Source: Hyalella azteca
Taxonomy: Eukaryota > Arthropoda > Malacostraca > Amphipoda > Hyalellidae
Direction of reading: 5' to 3'
NCBI RefSeq assembly: GCF_000764305.2
Contig: NW_025931978.1
Coordinates: forward strand, 87,115-151,114
DNA length: 64,000 nt
Shown piece by piece: positions 27,941-58,600 of the stretch. The stretch's first letter is position 1. Each line of letters begins with the position of its first letter. The position numbers and the translations under genes are program-made. The notes beneath the pieces were generated by a model. That model had not been told where the DNA came from, made no database searches, and saw nothing but the letters and a program-made list of their open reading frames with translations.

Positions 27941-28320
27941 GTTACTGACTCATTTGTCCCGTGAAGCACATGAAGCTTACGGCGCCCGACTCGAACTTTC
28001 GTCTACCTTTAACTCACGACACGTGCAGCTCACGACACGTGCAGCTCACGGCATGTTACTGACTCATTTGTCCCGTGAAGCACATGAAGCTTACGGCGCC
28101 CGACTAGAACTTTCGTCTACCTTTAGCTCACGACACGTGCAGCTCACGACAGGTGCAGCTCACGACAGGTGCAGCTCACGACACGTGCAGCTCACGGCAT
28201 GTGCAGCTCACGACAGGTGCAGCTCACGGCACGTGCAGCTCACGACATGTGCAGCTCACGGCATGTGCAGCTCACGGCATGTACAGCTCACGACATGTAC
28301 AGCTCACGACATGTGCAGCT
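27941..28320. repeat. 16-bp minisatellite within a roughly 114-bp duplication
   Basis: gttactgactcatttgtccc starts both at 27941 and at 28055, marking a 114-bp duplication. From about 28010 and again from 28124 the 16-bp unit gtgcagctcacgacat repeats, ending at the N at 28321. Confidence 0.9.
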
Positions 28321-28321: not shown

Positions 28322-28510
28322 ACCTGACAACGCTGGCAGGGACCTGACAACGCTGGCAGGGACCTGACAACGCTGGCAGGGACCTGACAACGCTGGCAGG
28401 GACCTGACAACGCTGGCAGGGACCTGACAACGCTGGCAGGGACCTGACAACGCTGGCAGGGACCTGACAACGCTGGCAGGGACCTGACAACGCTGGCAGG
28501 GACCTGACGA
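28322..28510. repeat. 20-bp minisatellite, nine perfect copies
   Basis: The unit gacctgacaacgctggcagg is repeated without variation. Perfect homogeneity beside a gap suggests a longer collapsed array. Confidence 0.95.
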
Positions 28511-33283: not shown

Positions 33284-33321
33284 CTGTCTCTTATACACAT
33301 CTAGATGTGTATAAGAGACAG
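33284..33321. other. Nextera mate-pair junction adapter left in the assembly
   Basis: 33284-33302 is CTGTCTCTTATACACATCT and 33303-33321 is its exact inverse. The first is the 19-bp Tn5 mosaic end used in Nextera kits, and the abutted pair is the known circularisation junction of Nextera mate-pair libraries. It is not biological sequence here. The flanks may be two ends of one library fragment rather than neighbours. Confidence 0.97.
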
Positions 33322-33975
33322 GTCTTACAGAGAGAGTAGAACTTGAGTGAATGCGTCTTAGAGGGAGAGTAGAACTTGAGTGAATGTTTCATAGAGGGAG
33401 AGTAAAACTTGAGTGAATGCGTCTTAGAGAGAGAGAAGAACTTGAGTGAATGCATCTTAGAGAGAGAGAAGAACTTGAGTGAATGCGTCTACAGGGAGAG
33501 TAGAACTTGAGTGAATGCGTCTGAGAGGGAGAGTAGAACTTGAGTGAATGTGTCTTAGAGGGAGAGTAAAACTTGAGTGAATGCGTCTTAGAGAGAGAGA
33601 AGAACTTGAGTGAATGCATCTTAGAGGGAGAGTAGAACTTGAGTGAATGTTTCATAGAGGGAGAGTAGAACTTGAGTGAATGTGTCTTAGAGGGAGAGTA
33701 AAACTTGAGTGAATGCATCTTAGAGGGAGAGTAAAACTTGAGTGAATGCGTCTTAGAGGGAGAGTAGAACTTGAGTGAATGCGTCTGAGAGGGAGAGTAG
33801 AACTTGAGTGAATGTGTCTTAGAGAGAGAGTAGAACTTGAGTGAATGTGTCTTAGAGGGAGAGTAGAACTTGAGTGAATGTGGCTTAGAGAGAGAGTAGA
33901 ACTTGAGTGAATGCGTCTTAGAGGGAGAGTAGAACTTGAGTGAATGCGTCTTAGAGGGAGAGTAGAACTTGAGTG
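33322..33975. repeat. 33-bp minisatellite, about 20 copies
   Basis: The unit gtgaatgcgtcttagaggga + gagtagaacttga is repeated with small variants. The 33-bp period gives open frames such as HSLKFYSPSKT repeats on the minus strand, which I do not take as protein. The array starts at the adapter, so its left boundary is unreliable. Confidence 0.95.
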
Positions 33976-35860
33976 AATCTACTGCAATGTACTGTTGAGT
34001 AATTATTTCCTTTTATAAAAGTATAATGGATAGATTTTAATTTTCTCTATATGTGCTGTATTGTTGTGATATTTGAGGAGTAATGTTACCCCTCGAAATA
34101 CAGCGTTTTTAGCAATATTATCGGTTAGGGGGAAATATGGTGTGGCCAGTTAGCTTGTAAATATTCTAGATCTGATTCAGGATCAGCAGTGTTTGGAATC
34201 AGGAGCTGACGCCAAGGTTTGTGATACAAAATATTACTAGAAATTAAGTATAAGCAGTACAGGAAGATAACCTACTTCGTGTTCTTTATTCCCACTATGG
34301 ACGCCAGAGAATTGAAAAGGCGGCTTGCCTTCTGGATTTTTAGCGAAGTCTAATCAACGTGGAAAAACTGTCCACTAATGTTGTTTTAATTTTCAAGCGC
34401 CGTGCGCGTAGAGTAGCTACCATCACTTTCCTACCTACCTCGACCTTCATTAACGCCGTGAAAAAGTTCACAACACTTTGAAAACTTCGCTAAATTCTTC
34501 GTTTTGACTGGGAAACAAAAAATCAACAAGAAGTTGACATCAATTTAGTAAGTGGGATACATCTTGACCTTATATTATTGTGAGATACGTCTTGATCGTA
34601 GCATTGACATCTCCCTTCGTCACTTGACCGCGGATTCGCTGGCATACGACAAATTGAACACATTGCTTCTGGAGGCCCGCAGTCGTCAAAGCAACTCAAC
34701 ATCGGTGTTCTTATTTTGGCCCAAATGATCCTGTACCGAAAATACCTAATTTTATTGACGCGAAAACTTGGCTCATCTGCGAAAAAATTAAAACTGTCTG
34801 AGCGCGTCCTGGTTACCCATGGAAAAAGAAGTTGCAGGAAAATTCAAGCGTTGGCCGGTCGTTTCTGAAAGTTCTGGCAACTGCATGGTTTATCTGCACG
34901 AACTCCAGAGCAGAAACGAGTGGAAACTGACGACAAGATTGGGCAGTAGCGATTTCATCTTGATCTGCTTTGACGAAAAATTTGTATTATTAAACAAACG
35001 GCGTGTATTATTGTGTGTTATTCCGGCGCTGTGAGATCGGTAACTTTGCGTCTCGTGAATAGCAAACTCGACGTCAAGAGGTGTTTCTGGAGTGGATGCC
35101 ACCCTCAGCCGTGCTCGTCGTTAATCAGCCTTCGCAAAATTCCTTGAATTTGACGAGATATTGATTGTGCTGATGGGACGTGACTGTCGTTTCGACAATG
35201 ACGATGGTTTGATCTCAACATTTGGAAGTTCAAACCTCATTTCATTAGACGGCGCTTGCGACGCTTCTTCAGCTGGCTACCGAAGTTCCTATATGCATCA
35301 CATTTGCATACGTATCATTTGAGCGTATATAGACACGATGGGTCTCTTAGCAAGTTAGCTGACATTTTCAGTAGCGACTTTGATATAATTTTTTTGTTCG
35401 ATACTTCTCTATCAGTCGTTGAAAATTTTGCTTTCCTTTATTGGTTGAAGATTTTAATATGAGGAGTGATTTAGTTTGACTATTTCACAATTTTATCGTC
35501 TCAAATTTTAGTCAACAGATTAATATGAATTTAGAGGTTGAATTTCGGTGTTTAGGCAGGCATTCTCTTCACCATTAAGTTGCATAACTAAAGGGTTGCC
35601 AAACTCTTCAAATATTGAGCTGTATTTGTGTTGTCATTTTCATATTATTCAAATTTGAACCATAATTGTTTTTTTTTCTGTTGAAAATTTTTTTGATTAG
35701 TCTGTCTAAAAACCAAGACCAATTCCCCTAGTCTAAGTCCACTTTGCTTCACATTGAGTTTTTTCATTTATTTTGAGATGGCCTCTATAAATATTTTTGT
35801 GAATGTAATGATTTTTAATATTTTTTTCAGAGAGTGAATAATATATACTTGAAATTAGAA

Positions 35861-38800
35861 ATGGAGCATTCAATAGATGGAGATTTTGAAATGAGTGTGA
35901 CCTCCAAGAAACGTGACCTCACTCACGTTGACGATGTGGAAGAGCGACCTGGCAAGATGAAGACATTCGTGACTAGTTCAATGGCTACCAAACCAACAGA
36001 TCTGTCTGTTGATGCGGTTAATTCAAGCGCAGATGAGGCTGGAACATCAGCGGCTGGAAACTTGGACGGTGCTGGAACGTCAGGGTACAACAGAGTCGCT
36101 GCGTCATACGCTGATGATCAGGAAGATGATGAATGGTTGCAATCTCACCACAGGACGCTATGTGAAATGTTCCCTGATGCTGACCCGGAATATCTGTTAT
36201 TAAAGTAAGTTTAATTAGTCTGTTAATATGTTTTATTGTAATGTCATTTTAATTATACGCTGTTTTGAATGTTCATAAGCCATAACCGTTCATTTCATGA
36301 TCAACCTCTGAGGATTATATTTAATTTGCTGATTGTAATTGTGATTTATTCACAAAGTTGTTGCAATAATTAAGATGCTTATTTACATGGCATCACTTCA
36401 CTCAGTCCCATTGTTTGCTCCTCTCCAGATGCGCAGAAGTCGAGCCTTGCGGCGCTCGCTTTGAAGCCCTCGTTGTGGAGCTCATGGATACCAAGAATTA
36501 TCCCAAGATGCAGGACTATATTTCCAGGACAAAACGCATGGAAATGCGTAAAAAGTTCCTAGATGATATGACTGTTCCTGAGTTCTTGGAGCTTTTCGAA
36601 GATCCCGAAAAGGTAATTTGGTCCAGTATTAAGACACGTCATCACTGTTAAGGAATATATTCAAGTTTTTATTAGTTTAAAGATCATATATTCTAAATAA
36701 TTCGAAAGTTCTTCTTAATTGTTGCTTGTCTTGTCTGACCACGGCGCACACACTGCTCTATTCAAAACATATCTTGCGACCTAGTCTCAACCGAGACAAT
36801 ATTGTTCACATAAGGGCTCAAGCGGACTCTGATAATTGTTGTTACTCATGTTATACTTGAACAGGTGTTCAACGACCACAACAAGGTGATGAATCTCCAG
36901 TACCGCCACAACTCGCGGGCCCAGCTGCTCAATGACCTGCCTTACCATTATGCCAAAGATGTCGACCGCGTCCTCAACGCCAATAACTACCACTACCTTC
37001 CGTCCTTGCGCGAACTTAAGGTAACGTGTTGCAACGCTACTTAGTAGTTCATCTTATGTTCTCTTCTTTAATGAACAGCTTCTACCTACCGTCCCTGCGC
37101 CGACTTCAGGTAACGTGTTGCAACGCTACTTAGTAGTTCATCTTATGTTCTCTTCTTTAATGAACAGCTTCTACCTACCGTCCCTGCGCTGACTTCAGGT
37201 AACGTGTTGCAACGCTACTTAGTAGTTCATCTTATGCTCTCTTCTTTAATGAAATGCTTCTATATTTAAGTTCTTCGGCACTCATACCACATCCTGTTCT
37301 CAAGGTGTCAAGGTATTAGTCTTTTATCTATTTCCTTCTTTCTATTTATGTGTATAGAAAACTTTGATTGAACTGCTGATCGATTTTCATCTATGATTAT
37401 TTATTTGTTCGTACTCCAGACAATGATATATAATAAAACATAAGATTTCAATGCAATATTATCTATATTGTGATTTTGTATCGTTATTTTTTTGTTTCCA
37501 CTAATCCTTTGTCTCCGCCTTCTTTTGGATGGTAAAGTTTCTCGCCCCCATAATGTAGCTATTTTGTTTATACAGTCCGAATACTTTGACCGGCGTAGAA
37601 TCAAGCGCAAAGAAACTCCGATCAGCGGCGAACTCGAAGACTTCTTCCTGAAGGAGCTTTACTACGCGCGCATGGAGGAGTCCATAGGAAGGCACCGCGC
37701 GGCCCAGGAGGAGGCCAAGAAGGAGGTTTTCGCTGCAGCAAAAGATGCCGGACTGCTGCGCACGTGTACCATTTGTTGTGAAGACGAAATACTTGAAGAA
37801 GACATGCGGGCTTGTGCCAGTCTTGATTCCCCGCACCTCTTCTGTAAAACTTGTGTTGGGAGGTTGGTAAATCTCATGTCTTTTGTAAGTTCATTTTTCT
37901 TCAAATTCGCCCTAGTTCATTCTTGTCTATTTGTAAAATTTATAAAGTTACGACCATTTTGTGTTCACTGTTCAAAATTTCATTTTTGAAAAAAAATTGG
38001 ACATGACTGCAACATTTGCGTATATCCAAGCATTTTATTTCATTATGTTGAATGGTGCAAAGGAATTGCTCTGCCTTTATTTGCTGGTAAAATGTGTCAA
38101 GTACTTTTTGCTTATTTGTATTGAAATGTATGAGCTCAGCTAGGATTAGTTTTTCCTCTACTTGGGCAATGCAACTATCGAACGCTTGGCAACCTTTTAT
38201 GTATTACTCGTCAATTTCATTCTTCCTAAATACAGAATGGCCTATAAATGTAGAGAACTACTGCCTTTACTCTGCCACCGCTTAGGATTTTTTTGTGAGT
38301 ATAACTTTAACTTTGGCTTATTTTCTGTAGATATTGCGAGGAGCAGATCGGGCAAGGAAGTTTAAAATTTGCCTGCTGTGACAGCTCGTGCAAGGAAGAG
38401 TTTTCCCTTAACGTCATCAAGACTGTACTTAAATCCTCGGTATTCTCAAACTTACTGAAGAGGAAGCAAGCCGAGGAGATCATGGCTGCTGGTATCGCTG
38501 ATCTCGAGTGTTGTCCTTTCTGCAATTTCGCCACAATTATGCCCAATAAAGAGGATAAGGTTTGTTTGTTTGCTTAATATACTTTATAGGCTGCTATATG
38601 CCTTCATTCTCTGGACACAATTGGCATTCCCTCATTCCCATATTTTGTGTCGGTTTTGTGTCTTGTATTGTTTCATTTTCACTTTAGGGAATTCTTGTTC
38701 TAATAATGCAAAGTTTGTATTATTTCTGCTATTGTTATAAAAAATTTCCAATGACGTTGCCTGTCATCTAACTTCTTTCTTGTGACCTAAAATATTGCTT

Positions 38801-41800
38801 ATAATCTCTCAGCATTGAGTTTATAAGCTTATATCTCAGCTTATAATCTCTCAGCAACTAGTGTACCGGTATTTCAACCCACATGTTTTTCATTGCATTT
38901 GTGTAAACATGTAAAATTTGCAGATTTTCCATTGCCTGAATCCTGAGTGTCTGAAAGATACGTGTCGCCTGTGCAAGGAGCCCGCGCACATCCCGCTACG
39001 CTGCGAGGAAATCGAGACGAAAGCTCAACTTTCCGCCAGGACTTACCTTGAGAACCAAATGACTGAAGCAATGGTCAGGTGAGTGCCTTGAGAACCAAAT
39101 GACTGAGGCAATGGTCGGGTGAGTGCTGCTTTCATGTAGACTGTTTGTGGCTCTCTAAGGATAGAACTTGAGTTCTGAAATGAACATTTACTAGGAGGTT
39201 AAAATTTGAAGATATGTATAAAAGAGAAATAAAAGTTCCACATTTTCTGGCATTTAATCTAATTTGGCTTTACAGCCTATTGATTCTCATAAAAGATCAT
39301 TGTGCAATTGACTTTCGCCTTCCTTACTTTCTTTATTGATATTGACAACCTCTCGGGATATTGCGCTTGTTTTGTGGTTGTGTTTCAGTGGCTCATGACA
39401 TCTTCGCGATGGTCAAATTTTAAATGCTTCCATCATTTCTTCATCTTGAGAATTACTGTGGCAGTGAAATATCTATATTTTAGTTAATGAAGACGCATTT
39501 TACAGAGAATGCTACAAGTGTGGCAAGCGCTTCATCAAAGAGGAAGGATGCAACAAAATGCAGTGTTTGTGTGGTGCTAAGATGTGCTACGTCTGCAAGA
39601 AGCCAATAACAGGATACGATCACTTCGACGACGGTCCTTACAGAGCAACTGCCGGGGATCTGCTGCCGTCACAAAGGAGCAAGTCAGTACTTTTTCCAAC
39701 TTCACATTCTGTTTAAAATAGGCATGAAATTTTCAAGCTACTTCTTCAGTAGCTTTATTTTGGCCCGAAGTCCCAATCGTGTCTTCTCGAGAAACTAAAA
39801 ATTTCAATAATCCACTAAAGTTACTAAGTTTTTGACATTTAAGTTTCCCCAATATGATAACTTAGCCTCCCACTTTAAATTCTTCATCAAGATTCACACT
39901 TGACAGTCATTAGCGCAAGGAATAAACCACGGTTCTGTTGATCTAAATTCCATGCATTCTTTTCTAATGGAAAGGTCGGAAGTAATTTGAAGATTTTATT
40001 GAATTATTTGTTTCAGTAGGAAACTAGAAGATGAATTGATAAGGCATGAACCAAATATCTCTACTACTTCACGTTTAGCTAAATATAACTTATATGTCTG
40101 CCTGTCACAATAGCGCCATAACTTATTTATTTGGCTGCTGGCGGCTGACATTCCTTGAATACAATGATCCCCTAATGTTTTTTTTAGTATAGCGACTCAC
40201 GGAAGCTGCATGCTGAGGAGGTGAAGAGGAAAGCCGAGGAGGCCAAGAAGACACTGGATCCTGACGTGCAGCTCAAGCATGACCCCACCAAATATGTACC
40301 GCAGGTACCTGCTTAAATTGGCCAGACTTGATTTTATGTTCAATCATCAATCTTTATTATGTGAACATAAATTCAATTAAATTAATTATTATAACATCAA
40401 TCTTTATTGCGTGTTATATATGTATATGTGTTTGCCTCTAAGGAACTCTGCTGACAATGATGTTCTTGAATTTTCCGTCCCATACACGATGGGATTAGCA
40501 ATAAATTTATCTTGTTAACATTGTGGGACATTTGTAATTTGCTCGCTATTAATTGCACTACTACAGATTGGGGTGTTCGCAATTCTCGCACCACCCTACC
40601 ACATTTTCAAGGTAGAATATATCTGGAAGTGCACAATTTACCCATTTTGTTATCCCTAAAAAGCATTCTCTTTCATTGTGAATGCAGCAGTGAACGGCTT
40701 CCGTCAAACTCAGACACACCTCCACTATTATTAGCTTCCAGATTACCTCCAAAACCAGCCCACCCACTTGGTCTTCCCACCACAAAGACCCCATCAGCCC
40801 CTCAGTTGCTCAAGTCCATGTCGTGGCGCGCCCTTTGAAGGCTGGCACCTCATTTCAGCTTGGAGCTGAAGGACGCCGTCACTTCCACGAACTCTTTGGA
40901 CCTTGGGGCCACAGCCCTCTTGGACCACCTCCTAGTATGACGTCCATCTATCGTTTTGTCGTGCATTACGGTTGATTGTTAACTCCTTTAAGATATAAAG
41001 GAGAAATTCTTTAGAGTTTCTCAGTGTAAATTTGCTGTCGTTATATTTTGGGAGTTCGTTGTACTGTCGTTGGTTGCTTTTTTTCGTCTAGTTTATCCTG
41101 GTTGATGAAAATTCCATATTAATTGACGAGCTTTTCTTGGGGGAACTTCTTAGAGTAGGTACTAGCAGCCTGCAGATATTTGAACACCAGTAAACACTAG
41201 CAGAACACCAGTAAACATTGTCCATCTTAATTTCAATATATTTTACATGAAATTCCACTTGCGAGATCTAGGAACTCGTTGAAGGATTCCACTCGTAAAG
41301 TGATATAATCTTACTCTACTTGACAATAGTATACCCAGGTCTTGCTTGCTGAAGCTAGAGCAGTGATAACGAAGACTTTTTAACCTCTTCCTCTAAATGT
41401 TTTCATTTGGCTGGGTTAAAACACTAACCCCTTCATTGCAACCAAAAAGTCAGCAACAGTAAATCGTTAATCCTATTTAACCCTCAATTTAGGAACCACT
41501 GCTCCCAGAGAGTTCAATAATTGTTGTGTTTAGCAGGGCCCTGCGACTGCTGTACAGATGCAACGGCAGCCTTATCCTGAGCACCAGTATCCTCCCTACG
41601 AACGCAATGTGCTATTTGGTTAGTGCTATTGTTGTCCTTTCAAGGGCCATAGTTTCAAAAAAAGTTAAGAGATCGTAAGTTCATCAGCCAATCACAGACA
41701 AGAAAATAGAGCGTAAGTACTTACGCTCACTTAGCGAGTTTTGAAAGTATGGCCCCTGATAATGAAGTTTACGTAGTCGTTGCAAGGTCACCAACGAAAG

Positions 41801-49250: not shown

Positions 49251-52200
49251 ATGACTGATAAAAGCCCAAGTCCCAATACTGAATGTCATAGCTCCAGCAG
49301 TGGGAATGATTCTACTGCAGATGAATTCACTGGGGCATATTCTGTCTCAAATATGGAGAGCTTCAGCAGAGAACATGAAGAGGTTTGTTGGTACCGTCAA
49401 CTGGGGTGACTTTGGCCACCCGAGGTGACTTCAGCCACACCTAAAACAGAAACAAATGGCAGAAAAACAAAATAATAAATGTTGGCCAAAGTGACTGGGG
49501 TGACTTTGGCCAACGTTTATTTTGTTTTGCTGCCGTTTGTTTGTGTTGTAGGTGTGGCCCAAGTCACCCTGGTTGGCTGAAGTCACCCCAGTTGATAGTA
49601 TGCTTTTGAGTTATTTGATTTTTCCAATTTGATTTTTCACTTATAAAACTGATTGTATTTGTGATAAAAGAATATTACATCTCTTACTTATTAATATATT
49701 ATAGAACTTATAAATTTTTCCCTATTTTTAAACTATTAGGTACAAATTCTATTGTTGGAAAACTTCAAACAAGTAAAGAATTGTTGATGAAATTGCAAAT
49801 GAGTAATAAATATTTAAATTTTATATATTATTCCTTGATTGAAACATATTGTCAAGAGATTTGCTAAGCTTCATATTTGAGTAGTTGGTTCCTTTATTTT
49901 GTTTCAATTTCATCTTATATTGAAACTTAGAATGAGTTTTGATCACACACAATTAGCAAGGTGGCACGCATTTATTTATGGAGTGCTTGTTTGCTTGACA
50001 TACCTTGGAATCTTGCAATTGTAAAACATTTTGGGTACCTTAAATGTTGAATGTAAAATTGCTGATCTAGGCTGTTAAATGTACAGACGTTGCTGCAGCC
50101 CTTCAGATATATTCTTCAAGTTCCTGGAAAGATGATCAGGAGTAAGTTGGCACTGGCATTCAATTTCTGGCTCAAAATTCCTCAAGAGAAGCTAACGGCC
50201 ATCTCTGAAATCATCCTTCTTCTTCACAATGCTAGTTTGTTGTAAGTCACTGCACTGCAATGCATTAGTCTCCCAAGTAGGCTGAGATATAGAATATAAT
50301 AGAATATAAGTGTTGGCACTGAAGAAATAGGCCCATGGCCTGTTGCCAATTCTTGTACTTTTTGTGACTTGAATATATCTGATCTGTCACGATGTGAATG
50401 ATGTTGCTGCGCCTTTATAGTGATCACTAAAGGCATGTGTGCTGTAGTATGTGCTTTACATGTGTAAAGGTTTTTATTGATGCCATATTTGTGCCTAAAT
50501 TTCTAGGTTGATACCGGTAGGTCAACAATTTATGATAAACTAAGTGGTTAAATATTTATGTGCTTTTGTCATAGAAGTGATAAGTTATAATTAATATTTT
50601 TAAATGAATAAGATATCAAACCTTATAATAAAGCTTTGAAGTACAGCTCTGTGATTTTTCTTTTTTTATTCTGGATCATTCCTTGCAAAATTCTATGTAA
50701 AAATATTGATTACTTATTTTTGTGTATCAGAATTAACCCAACCTGAACAGTTGACTTCATTCTGAAAATTGTGCTGGGATAGCAGAGCAAACACATTAAT
50801 GAGATCATTAATTTGCAGAATTGATGACATAGAAGATGGAAGTACATTGAGACGTGGCATCCCTGTGGCCCACAGCATCTATGGCATTGGCTCAACCATC
50901 AACTCAGCAAACTATGTTTATTTTTTAGGACTTCAGAAGACTCTTGCTTTAGAACATCCCCAGGTTCGTGTTCCTCCTAAATTTATACAACTATAGGACT
51001 ATACTCCTTGGACTAACTCTCACTATAGTTGTAGTCAGATTCATGTATTATGATTCAATTGGTAATGATTTATTTAGGCTTTTTAGTACGGTATTGTACA
51101 TTATTTTATACTTCTAAAATATTTTTTGTAAATGATTTATTATCATTATAATGATTCATTTGGATATGAATTTATGGGTATCTAGGCTGTGCATCCTGTA
51201 CACAGAATACATTATTTTATAATTATAAAATATTTTTGTTGAAATGATTTTTTGGCTACTCCTCTACAATTGTGATATGAATTACTATTGAAGCTGCGAT
51301 TGTTTTGTGTGATGAATGTTGCTTGTCTGTAAACTGGCTACTTATTGTTTAATATTTTCTTATTTTGTTTGATATTTTTAAATGATGTTGTATCATATTT
51401 TCCAGGCTGTGAATGTTTTCTGTGAACAACTCCTAGAGCTTCATCGAGGTCAAGGCTTGGACATCCACTGGAGAGACTCGTTTGCATGCCCCACTGAAGA
51501 GCAGTACAAACAGATGACCATTTGTAGTTAGTGCTTCTTGAAAACATGTTATCTTCTTGTATTACTATAGTTTGCCAGACAAGTTCTGTCCTTGAATTGT
51601 TAGATTTTTGCAGCAAAGTTTAATTTTTAATTGGGATAGCTCAACTGATATTGTATATTTTCAATTATATTAGTTTTACAGCAAAGCTACGTTTTTCTCT
51701 TGTTTTGGTCTTAGAGCCATTATATTATTCATGTCTTTGGTTTTTCAACTAAGTTCTATTGTTGCTGTGTTATTCTTATCAATGTTTTGAGTTTAAACTA
51801 TAATTCTTGCTACTGATCTAAGTTGCAGCATAAATTGAAGAGGTTCTTCTACGTACAATGTTCTAGTTGAACTTGTACCTATGTTCTTTATGTTTGTGCA
51901 ATGTTTGAGAACTTGATTATCTCAGCATAGCATATCGATCTTGATATGCACTCTAGTGCATATGCGCTAACTGATATTCTTATTTGCCTATTCAGTTGTG
52001 AAGAATGTTTTGGTTTTATTGGGTTGCTATTAATTTGCACTCGGGAAAGTTGCATCAATATCGTACCAATCATATTCTGGATATAGTCTTACTAAAATAA
52101 TTCAATTGGTCTGCACAAAGCTAGTGTTTTATTGGAATTTATTAATTTTGTATTGTAATAATCTAATAACATCAATATTGTACCAATCTTATTTCTGAAT

Positions 52201-55200
52201 ATTTATTTGGCTAAGCCTTACTTAAATAGTTTATTTGGTCTTCCCAAAGGTAGTGTTTTATTGGAATTAATAATCTTGCATTGATAAAGTGTTTATTGCA
52301 GAGACTGGAGGCTTGTTTGGTCTTGCTATACGCCTCATGCAGCTGTTCAGCGACTGTGACGCAAGCTTCTCCAAACTAATGGACATTCTTGGGCTCTACT
52401 TCCAAATCAGAGATGACTATGCTAATCTCTGCACGCAAGAGGTAATGAAAATAAGGCTAAGTACCAGGCCCTATACTTTCAAAACTCGCTAAGTGAACGT
52501 AAGTACTTACGCTCTATTTTCCTGTCTATGCTTGGTGGATTTTGCTTGAAAGGCCATCAATGATTGGCTGATGAACTTACGATCTCTTAACTTTTTTTTG
52601 AAAGTTTAGGGCCCAGGATTGGAGCAGAGAGGTGTGGTTTTGATCCCAGCTCTCGGCACCTCTTTCTGGTCAGAATCGGTGATGAGGCCGGGCGGTTAAG
52701 CAAAGCAAAATTGGAGCAGTGAGTTGCGTGTTTGAGACCGCATCAAGCTGTGAATGTTTTGCGATGTTAAGAATCGGGGACTGACCTACGGCCGAATGAA
52801 TGCTGAAACCGCTATTATTATTATCATATTATTATTATTAGGGGAACTTGAATTTTGTTGAACCATGAGCTTACAGGTGCTGAGAACTTGAGTGAGAGTA
52901 CATAACATCTGAAAAAAAGTTGACACTAATGACCTCAAGTGATAACATATGCCGTTAAAATGAACAATTAGGGAAAGCCGTCCGAGGTATTGTGTATAAA
53001 GGCTAAGAAATATAAGTTGAAAGTAATATCTTATATGTTTCCAAATCAGTGTATGATTCTTTGGTTTTTGTTCTTATTGACAATCTTGTCTTCCCTTTAT
53101 CTGAAATTTCAACACACTTCAAATGCATCAACTCAATCTTTCAATTAGGTAGCGTATGCTTTGCTGAGGTAGCCAATTATTCTCTAAAAGAAACCCTTTG
53201 TACATTTCAAAATTATACTGAAGAATCCAGGGACCCAACCAAACCCCAATAAAATGACTTGTATAAAAGTTTTTACATGAATGAATTCCGAGTTACGAGT
53301 TACACATTCACCCCTTTGACTTCCACTCGTAATTCTTATCCTGATATTTGAATGTATATTCATTACGATGAGATGTCACAAATCCCAATGAGGTAGGAGG
53401 TATATGGGACCCAAGAGAGTCCCACAAGGAGGTTTGAACGAATGCTCTATCAATTTCAAAGGACGTGATTTTCATAACATCTGACCGCACAACCTAGCAA
53501 AAATGCAAGCAGCATGTCAGGAGTTACTAGCTGCTGTGAGCCCAGCAGCACCTGACGTTTGAGCGCGCCGACGACTTGGTGCTGTAAACTGGAGAGCTTG
53601 GCAAGCCAAGGACTGGAGCATTGATGCTCAACTTCTGCTGCAATAAGTGGAGTGCAAGTGCTGCATTATTCTGTCATTGAGAAGACTACAACTTGTTAAT
53701 TAAGAGGTTTCTACTAAACGTTACAGCCGACAACAACCATATTATTTATAATCCGCCCAAAATTCTCCTCTAACTGATAATTGTTCAATTTGGAAGGGCG
53801 ATTCGTGTGTGACCAGCCAAAGACGCGAGACAAGGGATTTGATCCAGCGTTTGACACTTGATTTTTATTTGCAGTACTGTGACAGCAAAGGTTACTGCGA
53901 CGACTTGACAGAAGGCAAGTTTAGCTTTCCCATAATTCACGCCATCCACAGCCGCCCCAAGTGCCAACAAATAATCAGTGAGTTCAACTGTAAAAGAAAA
54001 TTAGAGTATATTGTATATAAAAAACTATATTTTTCCACATCTTAGGTGGTGTTTTTATTCATTTTCAAGAGTATGCAAGTACCTTGCTGAAAAATATCTA
54101 ATCTTTGCTATTTATTTCCCTTTTTTGTCCAATCCTCTTTTAAGGATCTTAATAATTATTACTACATCGTAATCTTAATTAACCTTCATGCTACGGATGC
54201 ATCAACTGTTATTGTTGCTATTTGTACCTTAAAGTCTAGTGACGAGAGTTACCATCAGTAGAAATGAATGTCATCTCAGACTCGAAGTGACAGATACACA
54301 AGACCAAAAAAACACTAGTTTTATACCTCATTTGACAGCATATTTTGGTTTATAACAATTGTACTCCTAATTGTTTATACTCCTCGTCTTAGAGTCATAG
54401 TCATAACCATATTTAATTGAGACTGTGGGGAGGAGTTCCATTTGCGTCGTAGCAATGCAGCCTTGGAGCAAATACGACAATCAGAGCAAATGTTCTGACA
54501 TCGACCGCTGCATTACAGGGCTTTTCTTTGTTCAGATATCATTTGCTTGCATCACAACCCCTCTCGTTTGTCCAGACATCATTCGCATGCATCACAACCC
54601 CTCTCGTTTGCCCAGACATCATTTGCTTGCATCACAACCCCTCTTCTTTGTCCAGATATCATTCGCTTGCATCACAACCCCTCTCGTTTGTCCAGACATC
54701 ATTCGCATGCATCACAACCCCTCTCGTTTGCCCAGACATCATTTGCTTGCATCACAACCCCTCTTCTTTGTCCAGATATCATTCGCTTGCATCACAACCC
54801 CTCTCGTTTGTCCAGACATCATTCGCATGCATCACAACCCCTCTCGTTTGTCCAGACATCATTCGTTTGCATCACAACCCCTCTCGTTTGTCCAGATATC
54901 ATTCGCTTGCATTATAACCCCTCTCGTTTGTCCAAACATCATTCACTTGCATTACAACCCCTCTCGTTTGTCCAGACATCATTTGCTTGCATCACAACCC
55001 CTCTCGTTTGTCCAGACATCATTCGCTTGCATCGCAACCCCTCTTCTTTGTCCAGACATCATTTGCTTGCATTACAACCCCTCTCGTTTGTCCGAACATC
55101 ATTTGCTTGCATTACAACCCCTCTCGTTTGTCCAGACATCATTTGCTTGCATCACAACCCCTCTCGTTTGTCCAGACATCATTCACTCGCATCACAACCC

Positions 55201-55624
55201 CTCTCGTTTGTCCAAACATCATTCGCTTGCATTACAACCCCTCTAGTTTGTCCAGACATCATTCGCTTGCATCACAACCCCTCTCGTTTGCCCAGACATC
55301 ATACGCTTGCATCACAACCCCTCTTGTTTGTCCAGACATCATTCGCTGGCATCACAACCCCTCTCGTTTGCCCAGACATCATACGCTTGCATCACAACCC
55401 CTCTTGTTTGTCCAGACATCATCCGGCAGCGGCCTAAGGACGTGGAGGTGAAGAAGTACTGCGTATCACTGCTACAGAAGTACGGGTCACTGGCCTACAC
55501 GCGCGACATGTTGCAGCAGCTCGACTCCCAGGCTAGGGAGGAGGTCAAAAAACTTGGCGATAATCCAATGCTCGTGGAAATTTTAGACACTTTACAATCT
55601 TCATTGAATTCATCACCCTTGTAA
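49251..55624 (+). CDS. GGPS1: Geranylgeranyl diphosphate synthase (type III, GGPS1-like)
   Basis: Exons 49251-49382, 50087-50241, 50819-50963, 51406-51526, 52302-52441, 53875-53977 and 55416-55624 join in phase (0,2,0,1,0,1) to 334 residues, against about 300 in human. The enzyme condenses farnesyl and isopentenyl diphosphate to C20 geranylgeranyl diphosphate, the donor for Rho/Rab prenylation. Visible: [17 protein letters not shown] substrate-binding block; first Asp-rich motif [14 protein letters not shown] (residues 96-109); PVAHSIYG and [37 protein letters not shown]; second Asp-rich motif [10 protein letters not shown] (218-227); [21 protein letters not shown] at the last junction. The extra length is a Ser-rich N-terminal extension of about 34 residues from exon 1. 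Catalytic residues look intact. The last intron ends in a 40-bp array copying the acceptor. Confidence 0.96.
49397..49595. mobile_element. 199-bp hairpin MITE at the start of GGPS1 intron 1
   Basis: tcaactggggtgactttggc at the left and its inverse at the right enclose two arms of about 95 bases that pair almost throughout (for example cacacctaaaacagaaacaa against ttgtttgtgttgtaggtgtg). It begins 14 bases after the exon 1 donor. Confidence 0.8.
50289..50373 (-). repeat. Interspersed repeat, copy 2 (retroelement 3' end-like)
   Basis: The reverse complement matches 19536-19620, including gtacaagaattggcaacagg and the TTCTA-type tail. It lies in GGPS1 intron 2, antisense to the gene. Confidence 0.65.
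52467..52614 (-). mobile_element. MITE, second copy of the 41643 family
   Basis: ggccctatactttcaaaac at the left, gaaagtttagggccc at the right and acgtaagtacttacgct inside match 41643-41756 in reverse. It is longer by a short internal insertion. In GGPS1 intron 5. Confidence 0.75.
52615..52845 (+). mobile_element. tRNA-derived SINE, second copy of the 3195 family
   Basis: From ggattggagcagagagg through the B-box remnant GTTTTGATCCCA to gctgaaaccgctattatta it aligns with the reverse complement of 3195-3458. The A-box end is missing or diverged where it meets the MITE at 52614. The tail is TTATTATTA. Sense orientation in GGPS1 intron 5. Confidence 0.85.
53395..53515 (-). repeat. Possible tRNA-like (SINE) fragment
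   Basis: The minus strand has TTGTGCGGTCAGATG and, about 45 bases on, CGTTCAAACC, which resemble weak A and B boxes. A single copy, so tentative. Confidence 0.25.
54519..55420 (+). repeat. 40-bp minisatellite of 22-23 units copying the last GGPS1 acceptor
   Basis: The unit cccctctcgtttgtccag + acatcattcgcttgcatcacaa repeats at exactly 40 bases; CAG ends fall at 54535 and every 40 bases to 55415. The last one is the true acceptor, followed by the exon start ACATCATCCGGCAG. Each unit therefore carries a pyrimidine tract, CAG and a near copy of the first 9-10 exon bases. Because 40 is not a multiple of three, long open frames run through all three phases; I do not regard them as proteins. Confidence 0.97.
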
Positions 55625-55685
55625 AGCCTTCAAATTTTAGACACTTTACAATCTTCATTGAATTCATCACCGTTGTAAAGCCTTC
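55578..55685 (+). repeat. 54-bp tandem duplication of the GGPS1 C-terminal codons and stop
   Basis: aaattttagacactttacaa begins at 55578 and 55632 with one or two differences. The first copy contains the last codons and TAA (55622-55624); the second lies in the 3' untranslated region. Confidence 0.92.
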
Positions 55686-58600
55686 AGCACAATTTTAGAG
55701 CAAGCTTCATAGGGCTAATGTTTTAGTTGTTTTATCATGTGTTTATGTAACTTGATTTTCATCTTCTATTTAATTCTTTTAATTTGTCAATGGTGATTTT
55801 ATGTTCGGCTATTCAAGGAACTTAACAATTTTAATGGTTACAATGCAATTTCTTGACAGCTGATGAGCTTCAACAAAACGTCTGGAATTGTTATTGTTTC
55901 AGGATTGGTCTCCGACTCATAAGAAAATTTTTTGTGTTGTTATTGTGGTCCAACAATTTGCATGTTGAAGTATTATTAAGACTATTACAAAAACACAGAA
56001 AGTTTAAGAAGCCAAGTCAAGTTTAAGAAGTCATTATGTTATTTAAATATGTATAACCTCGTACCTGCCTGTAATGTGCACTTGATACTTATTCTGTATA
56101 GTTTGCCAATTGCTATGCAATTATTTATTCCATCTAATGAAGTGGAGACCCAGATAACAGTGTTGAATATCTATTGCCTTTTTCATTTATTCCAACTCTA
56201 ATTACGTTTTGCTTCATTGATGCGTGTAAGTTGTAAATCGTGAGCTGCGTGACCCTTTTAATTTAATTAGCACTTTTAATTTAATTATAATTATATAATT
56301 AAATTATTTGTTATGCAAGCAATTTAATCCGTGGCTGGCTCTAACCGTGTGCCTTGGCCGCCATACCCTCCGTCTGACCGGCCTCTCACTGGTGTGGCAA
56401 CATAGCATCCCTGAAGGTTAGAGCAATAAGCTCTAGCAACTTCAGCCGTTGTTGCTCGCCAGGTTGCGGTTGATTGTAGCGGCCTTGTTGATCATCGGCG
56501 TTGTTGCTCACCCCGAGTGGCAGTTCACCCGGCGTCGTAGATCACCCGGTGTAGCATATTAACCCGGCTTGGCAGATCACCCGGTGTATCATATTAACCC
56601 GGCTTGGCAGATCACCCGGCGCACCGTGCACCTTGTATGCAAATCTTGCAAGATCTACATTCTGTTTTGTGCGAGTCTACTTTTTTATTACAGTACTATT
56701 TATTTTTTAACTTTTCTTACTCGAGTCTTTCAAGTCGTTCACCGCTCGCCTGTGCTGATAGCGACAAGTTGACAAGTCAATCATGAGTCTCGATAAACCT
56801 TGCAGTAATCGATCCTGTATTTATGACTGAACTACTTGCATTAACAGTTTTATCTCTCCAACGAGAAATATGGCGCACTCTAAGCAAGCTGCATGACGTT
56901 CGCCTAAGCACGTTGAAAGTAGTCAGCAATTACATGTCCTTGGGAGGCATGTTCCTGAGCGCCCCACTACTGCTCGAGGTGCATGACTGCTAGCCTCGTG
57001 TGCGGGGTTAAGTTTTACAGGCAGGATATTTCTTTATATTTTGTTCTCTATCCCGCGGCCCATCTCTCGTTTATAGTGTACGAGTGTCTGTTCCTGCTGC
57101 CGTTCGTCTGCTCTATCTCTGTCTTTATAAGATGCTAACGCTGCTGCACTTCTACCGATTTTTGATTGATTGTTGTTGGAGTCGTTCCGTCTCTTCTGTG
57201 ATTTTTTATTAGAGAAATTTGTGGGGAGGGAAACCGTTCTCTCGTGTGTTGCCGTTTATTTAGTGGTTTGTGCTGCTTGCCTGCCTCGCTGCTGATGAAC
57301 TAGCAAGCCTCTGCACTGTACTATACTTGAAATAAAAGATACTAGCTATGGCAATCCCCATGAAGTTGTTACAATCGAAAAATTATCTTGCTATCTATTT
57401 ACGCGGATGTCTTTGCATCTTCATTTCCTAGTGTCTGCACTTGGTACAATTTGGTGATTTTTATTGTTGTTGTTGTCGTCTAATTTCCCTCAAGGAGGAA
57501 CTGTGATGGCCTGTCCATCAGAGTTTCAAGGGGACATCGCTCTCCCCGGGGCACCTTACGCCTGCCGTTTGATAATTATAATTCATTTATTAAACGCACG
57601 TAGCAACATATCAGATTTTATTGAGGCTTTGACGCGTAGTTAGCTTAGACGATATAACGAATCTATATTATGGAGCGATTGCAAAATTTCATTCATATCA
57701 AGTGCGGTGATGACGGACATGTTACTGGTATACATTCAAGCACAAAAATCATTCTGACGGGATCTCAAGAATGTGACTGGTGCATGTCCAAAACACACGA
57801 CACAAATCGTGCTGATAGTATTGCAAATTGTTAATGCAGTAGATTCAAAGCAATTTTACGGCTCTGTATTCAGCCATTTCTGTGGTCAGGTTGATGTAAC
57901 CCTGGCCCCTACTTTTGCAGATGTAAGAAAGTGCGTCAAATTAAACGGGTTCGGGACAGTCGTGGCGATCGCAACTCTGCGGTAGTTGAATTTGTCTCTG
58001 AGGGTGACATCAAAATCGCTTCTTTGTCTGTAAGCTTTACGACATCACAAATTTTATCGAGAATCTGTGTGCGGGAAGTGAAATATAAATTTTGCCAAAT
58101 GCTTGGAATTCAACTCGTTCAGCGCCGGTGTTTAAACTTGAAAGCGTAAAATTGTAATTGATGCCGAGATAAACAATCCCTGAAATATTAGAATATTGGT
58201 ATCTCGAATCCCGTTGATAATTTCTAATCCGAAGTAGAAGTAATGTTACTAAGTGATAAAGTCAGATCTCCGCCTTGATAAAGAATTCCTACTCAAGTCC
58301 CGTTTTGAAGTTCTAAGGAGTCTCAAGTTATTTTTTAATATAAAACTACGTCAAAACAAAAATGAACGTCTCATTGCAAGCTCCGTGCTCCTGTTTAGAT
58401 TCGCCTTATGAACCACACCTATAAAAATCAAATTAGAAGCCCAGTTATTGTCCAGTTACGACAGGTATTGAGGATGCGTTGCTGAAGAAACCTTCCTTGT
58501 ATTTTACCCACAGGCTACACTCAAAGGCTCTCATAAAATTATGATAGTAGATCTGAATATAATTAAGAAGTTTCATCTGCATCCAGTTTCATGAAGCTAA

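Follow-up and report, generated by a model that had tools for sequence, protein, structure and literature searches.

Probable tandem duplication of an intron/exon boundary into a 40-bp minisatellite before the last GGPS1 exon of Hyalella azteca

The window analyzed here is a stretch of 64,000 nucleotides of contig C436 (NW_025931978.1:87115-151114), part of the 519-Mb assembly of Hyalella azteca. It carries a gene encoding geranylgeranyl pyrophosphate synthase (GGPS1), whose coding exons are listed in Table 1 together with the other features discussed. Every intron of the gene model is of the GT-AG type. The model was assigned to the GGPS1 family by its full-length similarity to the solved human enzyme (2q80; E=1.9e-119, residues 2-282 of 290), and the exon 6/7 junction is gapless in this alignment. 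Its top match, the deposited protein P0001 (named “geranylgeranyl pyrophosphate synthase [Hyalella azteca]” by NCBI), is 100% identical across the entire query. P0001, which may be a computed gene model rather than an RNA-based one, is spliced at position 55416 and thus uses the last unit of the array described below. A genome search gave 7 exon matches, all at one place (GGPS1 is a single-copy gene), and no retrocopy that could reveal the junction. Since GGPS1 was found only once in the genome, the last acceptor is presumably used enough to provide a working enzyme. In another deposited model, P0005 (HAZT_HAZT007628), translation continues beyond the exon 6 donor and exon 7 is missing, possibly on account of the array. 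At the other end of exon 7, a 54-bp tandem duplication (two copies, 98%; 55578-55686) spans the coding end and the stop codon, so that this exon bears tandem duplications at either end; of the stops within the latter duplication, P0001 uses the first.

Table 1. Features of the GGPS1 locus, RNF216-like arrays of the same window, and kinase loci with an array at an exon edge (a slash marks the splice boundary).
Feature	Position in the window	Strand	Basis or remarks
GGPS1 first coding exon	start near 49251	+	genome search with exon matches
GGPS1 later coding exons	50087-50241, 50819-50963, 51406-51526, 52302-52441	+	gene model
GGPS1 exon 6	53875-53977	+	ends ATA ATC A, then GTGAGT (donor GT at 53978); gene model, P0001
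Weak possible remnant of a further unit	54491-54518	+	local alignment; 20/1000 shuffles as good (54380-54520)
Acceptor array of 23 in-register 40-bp units	54506-55425	+	repeat finder, unit alignment
First unit, strongly diverged	54506-54545	+	19/40 mismatches, ungapped; unit alignment
Unit without AG (CCAA), AG position 54935	54906-54945	+	unit alignment
Unit without AG (CCGA), AG position 55095	55066-55105	+	unit alignment
Unit without AG (CCAA), AG position 55215	55186-55225	+	unit alignment
TAG stop in the exon frame; sole out-of-phase AG within 54536-55415	55244-55246	+	sequence scan
Sole in-frame, stop-free decoy unit, AG ends at 55295	55266-55305	+	splicing script
Decoy unit, AG ends at 55335	55306-55345	+	39/40 bases as in the true unit; unit alignment
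Last unit with the functional acceptor (AG 55414-55415; exon 7 from 55416)	55386-55425	+	gene model, 2q80 alignment, P0001
GGPS1 exon 7, coding part up to the TAA stop	55416-55624	+	gene model, P0001
Purine-rich, enhancer-like segment AAGGACGTGGAGGTGAAGAAG, 21 nt past the true AG	55436-55456	+	composition only; putative role
RNF216-like donor array, 89 bp x 3	36993-37262	+	GT at 37021 (exon side), 37110 and 37199; repeat finder, frame
RNF216-like donor array, 40 bp x 2	39046-39126	+	GT at 39079 (exon side) and 39119; repeat finder, frame
Kinase locus L065			nine donor copies, 32 bp, in register; ninth diverged
Kinase locus L063			six acceptor copies carrying some 40 exon-like bases
Kinase locus L064			six copies TTTCAG/CGGAYTTCGGGT; the sixth adjoins the exon that contains the DFG codons
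Kinase locus L046			six acceptor copies; only two bases common to the exon
Kinase locus L059			least clear case; working AG may be the last or the last but one, and the called array ends before the last

The intron preceding exon 7 ends in a tandem array, identified by Tandem Repeats Finder at 54527-55422 (period 40, 22.4 copies, 90% matches, 0% indels, score 1470). The sequence-only reading had reported 23 copies of a 40-bp unit before the last GGPS1 exon and a true acceptor at 55415; the 23 units were recovered in register with the acceptor, whose position is borne out by both the gapless 2q80 alignment and P0001. Each unit is composed of 30 intronic bases (a pyrimidine tract and CAG) and 10 exonic bases, with the consensus CTTGCATCACAACCCCTCTCGTTTGTCCAG/ACATCATTCG, the latter part being almost identical to bases 1-10 of exon 7. 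These exonic bases (ACATCATYCG), together with the final A of exon 6, encode Asn-Ile-Ile-Arg. The similarity between unit and exon stops after exon base 10, which places the right edge of the array inside the coding exon. The earlier statement that all units contain the pyrimidine tract, CAG and exon copy holds for the general structure of the unit, but AG is kept in only 20 of the 23 units, i.e., in 19 of the 22 decoys and at the functional site. Elsewhere in the window, ACATCATTCG was not matched at 9 or more of its 10 positions by any of 62,951 plus-strand 10-mers. Local alignment of the exon alone with the unit was not significant (266 of 1000 shuffles were as good); descent of the unit from the exon rests on its fixed position beside the AG and not on the alignment score.

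The 23-mer (-20 to +3) of the decoy at 55335 is identical to that of the true site, so no score limited to this stretch separates 55335 from 55415, and ten more AG-bearing decoys differ from the true 23-mer by one base. A script spliced exon 6 to each of the 22 decoy positions, and the reading frame was followed. The position 55295 alone yields the normal C-terminus, with an extension of 40 residues, while the other 21 would forfeit it, reading 20 to 300 residues after exon 6 before a stop (at 54917, 55246, 55437 or 55451). The script thus reproduced what had been deduced from the letters: that only 55295 extends the exon in frame and stop-free, that the decoy at 55175 and earlier ones in its phase end at the TAG at 55244-55246, and that other phases shift the frame (stops at 54917, 55437 or 55451). 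All of these stops fall within the last coding exon, and exon-junction-dependent decay would therefore not be expected to remove the resulting messages. The further suggestion that the spliceosome picks the last of 23 look-alikes agrees with P0001, which uses the last unit, but the choice would be among 20 AG-bearing units; the alternative offered with it, the existence of isoforms, gained no support from this analysis. Neither GTRAG nor AGGT was found by a scan of 54500-55415, and internal micro-exons and recursive splicing in the array were rejected on this ground. No yTnAy branch site is present in the last 60 intron bases, and the best candidate is ATCAC, with its A at -22. One frame of the array contains no stop for 312 codons, which alone is weak evidence for coding; this possibility was rejected, as the repeat peptide matched no protein (73 candidates, none at E<=0.01).

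With respect to the origin of the array, a 24-base core of the unit was searched for in the 519-Mb genome at up to 3 mismatches. All 22 matches lie inside the array, a reversed control pattern gave 0 matches in the same 519 Mb, and a separate DNA search for the unit found only the GGPS1 locus. Because the unit core was found only at this locus, the array is concluded to have grown in place. At this position, the peptide Asn-Ile-Ile/Leu-Arg-Gln-Arg is present in H. azteca, Trinorchestia, Hirondellea, Armadillidium and human; given this conservation, the exon side is old and it was the array that copied the exon. Hence, the view that the array grew out of the splice site was upheld by (i) the 30+10 structure of the unit, (ii) its edge within the exon, (iii) the conserved Asn-Ile-Ile-Arg and (iv) the single locus.

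Comparison of the units also provided insight into the turnover of the array. Counting from the boundary unit (unit 0), units 3 and 1 differ by one base, as do units 2 and 0 (one difference in 40), and only units 3 and 1 have an A at +8. Over 80 bp, units 1 and 0 are therefore nearly identical to units 3 and 2, which indicates a late duplication of an 80-bp block containing either the working acceptor or the acceptor ancestral to it. Judged from these unit alignments, the functional acceptor itself appears to take part in array turnover. The left part of the array is built of a 120-bp higher-order repeat, with identical 120-bp blocks and a perfect 186-bp match (54545 and 54665). Because of this perfect repeat, the number of units is uncertain when derived from short reads, and the 23 counted in this one assembly may reflect an estimate made by the assembler; the H. 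azteca assembly was presumably built on short reads.

In our interpretation, to which we give a probability of about 0.8, the array is a minisatellite founded by the in-place duplication of 40 bp across the junction and later expanded to 23 copies, of which the exon-side copy is predicted to be normally the sole one used. A piece of 30 intronic bases with the acceptor signals and 10 coding bases would have been tandemly duplicated through the boundary, and unequal exchange or slippage would have brought the array to its 23 units. Duplication of a boundary would leave one copy touching the exon, and this copy would be taken by the spliceosome because it contains the sole AG located directly before the exon body and the purine-rich segment (exon definition). 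If the exon-touching copy is taken, the decoys would be approximately neutral and the array free to grow. The array lacks the motifs GAAG, GGAG, GAG and GGA, which occur 3, 3, 3 and 5 times, respectively, in exon 7; on the basis of this composition, exon definition via the purine-rich segment is proposed as the chooser. In acceptor arrays the copy giving the protein is transcribed last, which speaks against a first-come-first-served choice and fits exon definition. It is likely that the array is tolerated because the exon-touching copy is chosen by exon definition.

Local signals equal in quality to the true site, the retention of AG in 19 of the 22 decoys and the in-frame position of 55295 might also be expected of a functional bank of alternative acceptors, making GGPS1 isoforms and chiefly the 40-residue extension. 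We consider such a bank unlikely, as the normal C-terminus is lost for 21 of the 22 decoy positions, three decoys have no AG, the repeat peptide occurs in no protein (see above), and no second H. azteca isoform with the extension was present among the best 120 of 5253 matches. It is still harder to believe that the repeated pyrimidine tracts assist splicing by concentrating U2AF and U2 close to the exon, with selection maintaining the array because it enhances use of the last acceptor. Such an enhancer would agree with the pyrimidine tract in each unit (by consensus) and with the location of all 23 units on the intron side of the exon; however, donors also bear arrays, which differ from this one in sequence, and no sign of constraint was found on the decoy AGs, although this comparison (in 21 decoys, 4 base changes within the AG dinucleotide vs. 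about one change per position overall) is not decisive.

Introner elements are repeats that carry a splice signal and are dispersed over many genes. The GGPS1 unit is likewise a repeated sequence with a splice signal, but, in contrast to the dispersed introners, it is found at one locus only. Minisatellites are frequent in this genome (50 tandem-repeat rows in the 64-kb window; 8.9% of the kinase loci described below), and insertion of a dispersed satellite or introner-like element beside the exon, carrying an acceptor by chance, would draw on this abundance. The copies expected elsewhere were not found in the assembled sequence at the similarity used in the core search (22 of 22 matches are inside the array) and the exonic part of the unit is conserved coding sequence, which makes such an insertion hardly credible. 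An assembly artefact, i.e., the inflation of one or a few real copies by short-read assembly or misplacement of the array, is also improbable, if less remote than an insertion: many distinct variants exist among the units, and similar boundary arrays, each with its own sequence, are present at other loci, yet the perfect 186-bp repeat inside the array and two flaws next to other arrays of the window would suit an error of this kind. At 33284-33321, adjoining a 33-bp array (33322-33978), AGATGTGTATAAGAGACAG is present twice as an inverted pair (38 bp), which we take to be a Nextera adapter junction that was not trimmed before assembly. The sole N of the window (28321) is located exactly between arrays 28125-28320 (16 bp) and 28322-28508 (20 bp, 100% identical) and suggests an assembly join.

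Tandem duplications of intron/exon boundaries, named mirages, are described for amphioxus in two papers (PMC3087553, PMC3902484). According to these papers, mirages occur in the genes Adh3, BflGb6 and BflGb9 (globins), PGBD5 and TnC, at both 5' and 3' boundaries; AG/GT is kept in many units, the length differs between haplotypes, and regular splicing is undisturbed (PMC3087553, PMC3902484). The GGPS1 array shares with mirages a minisatellite-like repeat that spans the boundary, with AG in most but not all units; as for undisturbed splicing, P0001 fits and P0005 does not. It differs in its occurrence in a crustacean, not a cephalochordate, and in the number of its units (23 short ones vs. 3-6 in the two BflGb6 haplotypes). 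Moreover, the boundary of the BflGb6 cluster is said to be excluded from homogenization, whereas the functional boundary of GGPS1 appears to take part in turnover. No arthropod mirage was found among the matches listed for the open-licence literature. The GGPS1 array is a very long mirage in a new phylum, of a kind already known from amphioxus. The array resembles NAGNAG acceptors (PMC3250501) in having several AGs, predicted here to be usable, at one acceptor, but the latter have three-base spacing and give in-frame isoforms, while the 40-base units mostly shift the frame. Similarly, tandem genomic duplication underlies the change in gene structure in both GGPS1 and the potato RdRp gene (PMC4974935), but the potato gene gained a new intron, whereas the GGPS1 array lengthens an existing one and creates none.

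The window contains two further boundary arrays, both located at donors of an RNF216-like gene (Table 1). This identity is based on a PDB search match (7m4m, E=1.8e-07) for one of two pieces; a Pfam scan of both pieces gave no family. Beyond the exon-side donor, the reading frame is closed immediately in the 40-bp array and after seven residues in the 89-bp array. In the decoy units of the latter, the intronic parts are far more similar than the exonic parts, and the units resemble possible 31-nt micro-exons (AACAG/...CAG/GTAACG). The whole contig has 82 rows of arrays with a period of at least 20, of which 17 have a splice-like unit (by a loose pattern); three of these are the GGPS1 array and the two RNF216-like arrays. 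Five others were examined, and no recognisable coding context was found at C436 positions 82066, 82071, 108325, 108335 and 131712. The array at C436:82066-82145, outside the window, consists of three copies of 25-26 bp with a donor-like GGAAAG/GTGAGT on the minus strand.

Exon edges were also surveyed in kinase loci, none of which was chosen for repeats. A PF00069 search of the genome gave 138 kinase matches, and 50 of them (the 30 best and ranks 51-70) were sampled. Arrays with a period of at least 15 cover 8.9% of 158,629 bases in these loci. In a strict set of 58 edges (30 acceptor, 28 donor), each of them internal to the domain and followed on its outer side by an in-frame stop within 180 nt, five are crossed by arrays (four acceptor, one donor; Table 1), with a 95% interval of 2.9-19%, or 1.9-17% without the least clear case, for a small sample of one family in which profile edges approximate exon edges. 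In the flanks, 11,708 of 121,041 positions (9.7%) are occupied by arrays, compared with 47 of 17,172 (0.27%) in exon interiors, such positions being non-independent; counted by exon, the interior is reached in 3 of 48, two of them in loci that also bear an edge array. A looser count placed an array within 40 bp of 8 of 100 match edges, compared with 1194 of 7956 random places (15.0%), i.e., it gave no excess, and within the kinase loci the vicinity of exons is slightly poorer in arrays than the remainder. The exon-side copy leads into the kinase reading frame in all five crossed edges, as judged by frame. In two cases, L064 (GAC/GAT) and 55416-55425 of the window (ATC/ATT), the working exon has C at a synonymous third position where most decoys have T.

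The kinase survey suggests that the H. azteca genome holds many boundary arrays. A more general proposal, for which we would offer somewhat less than even odds, is that minisatellites of H. azteca treat splice sites as plain intron. Exon edges would then be entered about as often as flanks and exon interiors hardly at all, the exon-touching copy of 2 to 23 would be read genome-wide, and working sites would be steadily replaced by their own duplicates.

The GGPS1 array constitutes a natural experiment on a classic problem, how the spliceosome settles on a single splice site among many equivalent ones, and a decoy 80 bases upstream, with an identical 23-mer, defeats scores based on that stretch. 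It is also a warning for annotators, one deposited GGPS1 model being without the last exon. In the H. azteca genome it belongs to a set of several arrays that duplicate boundaries.
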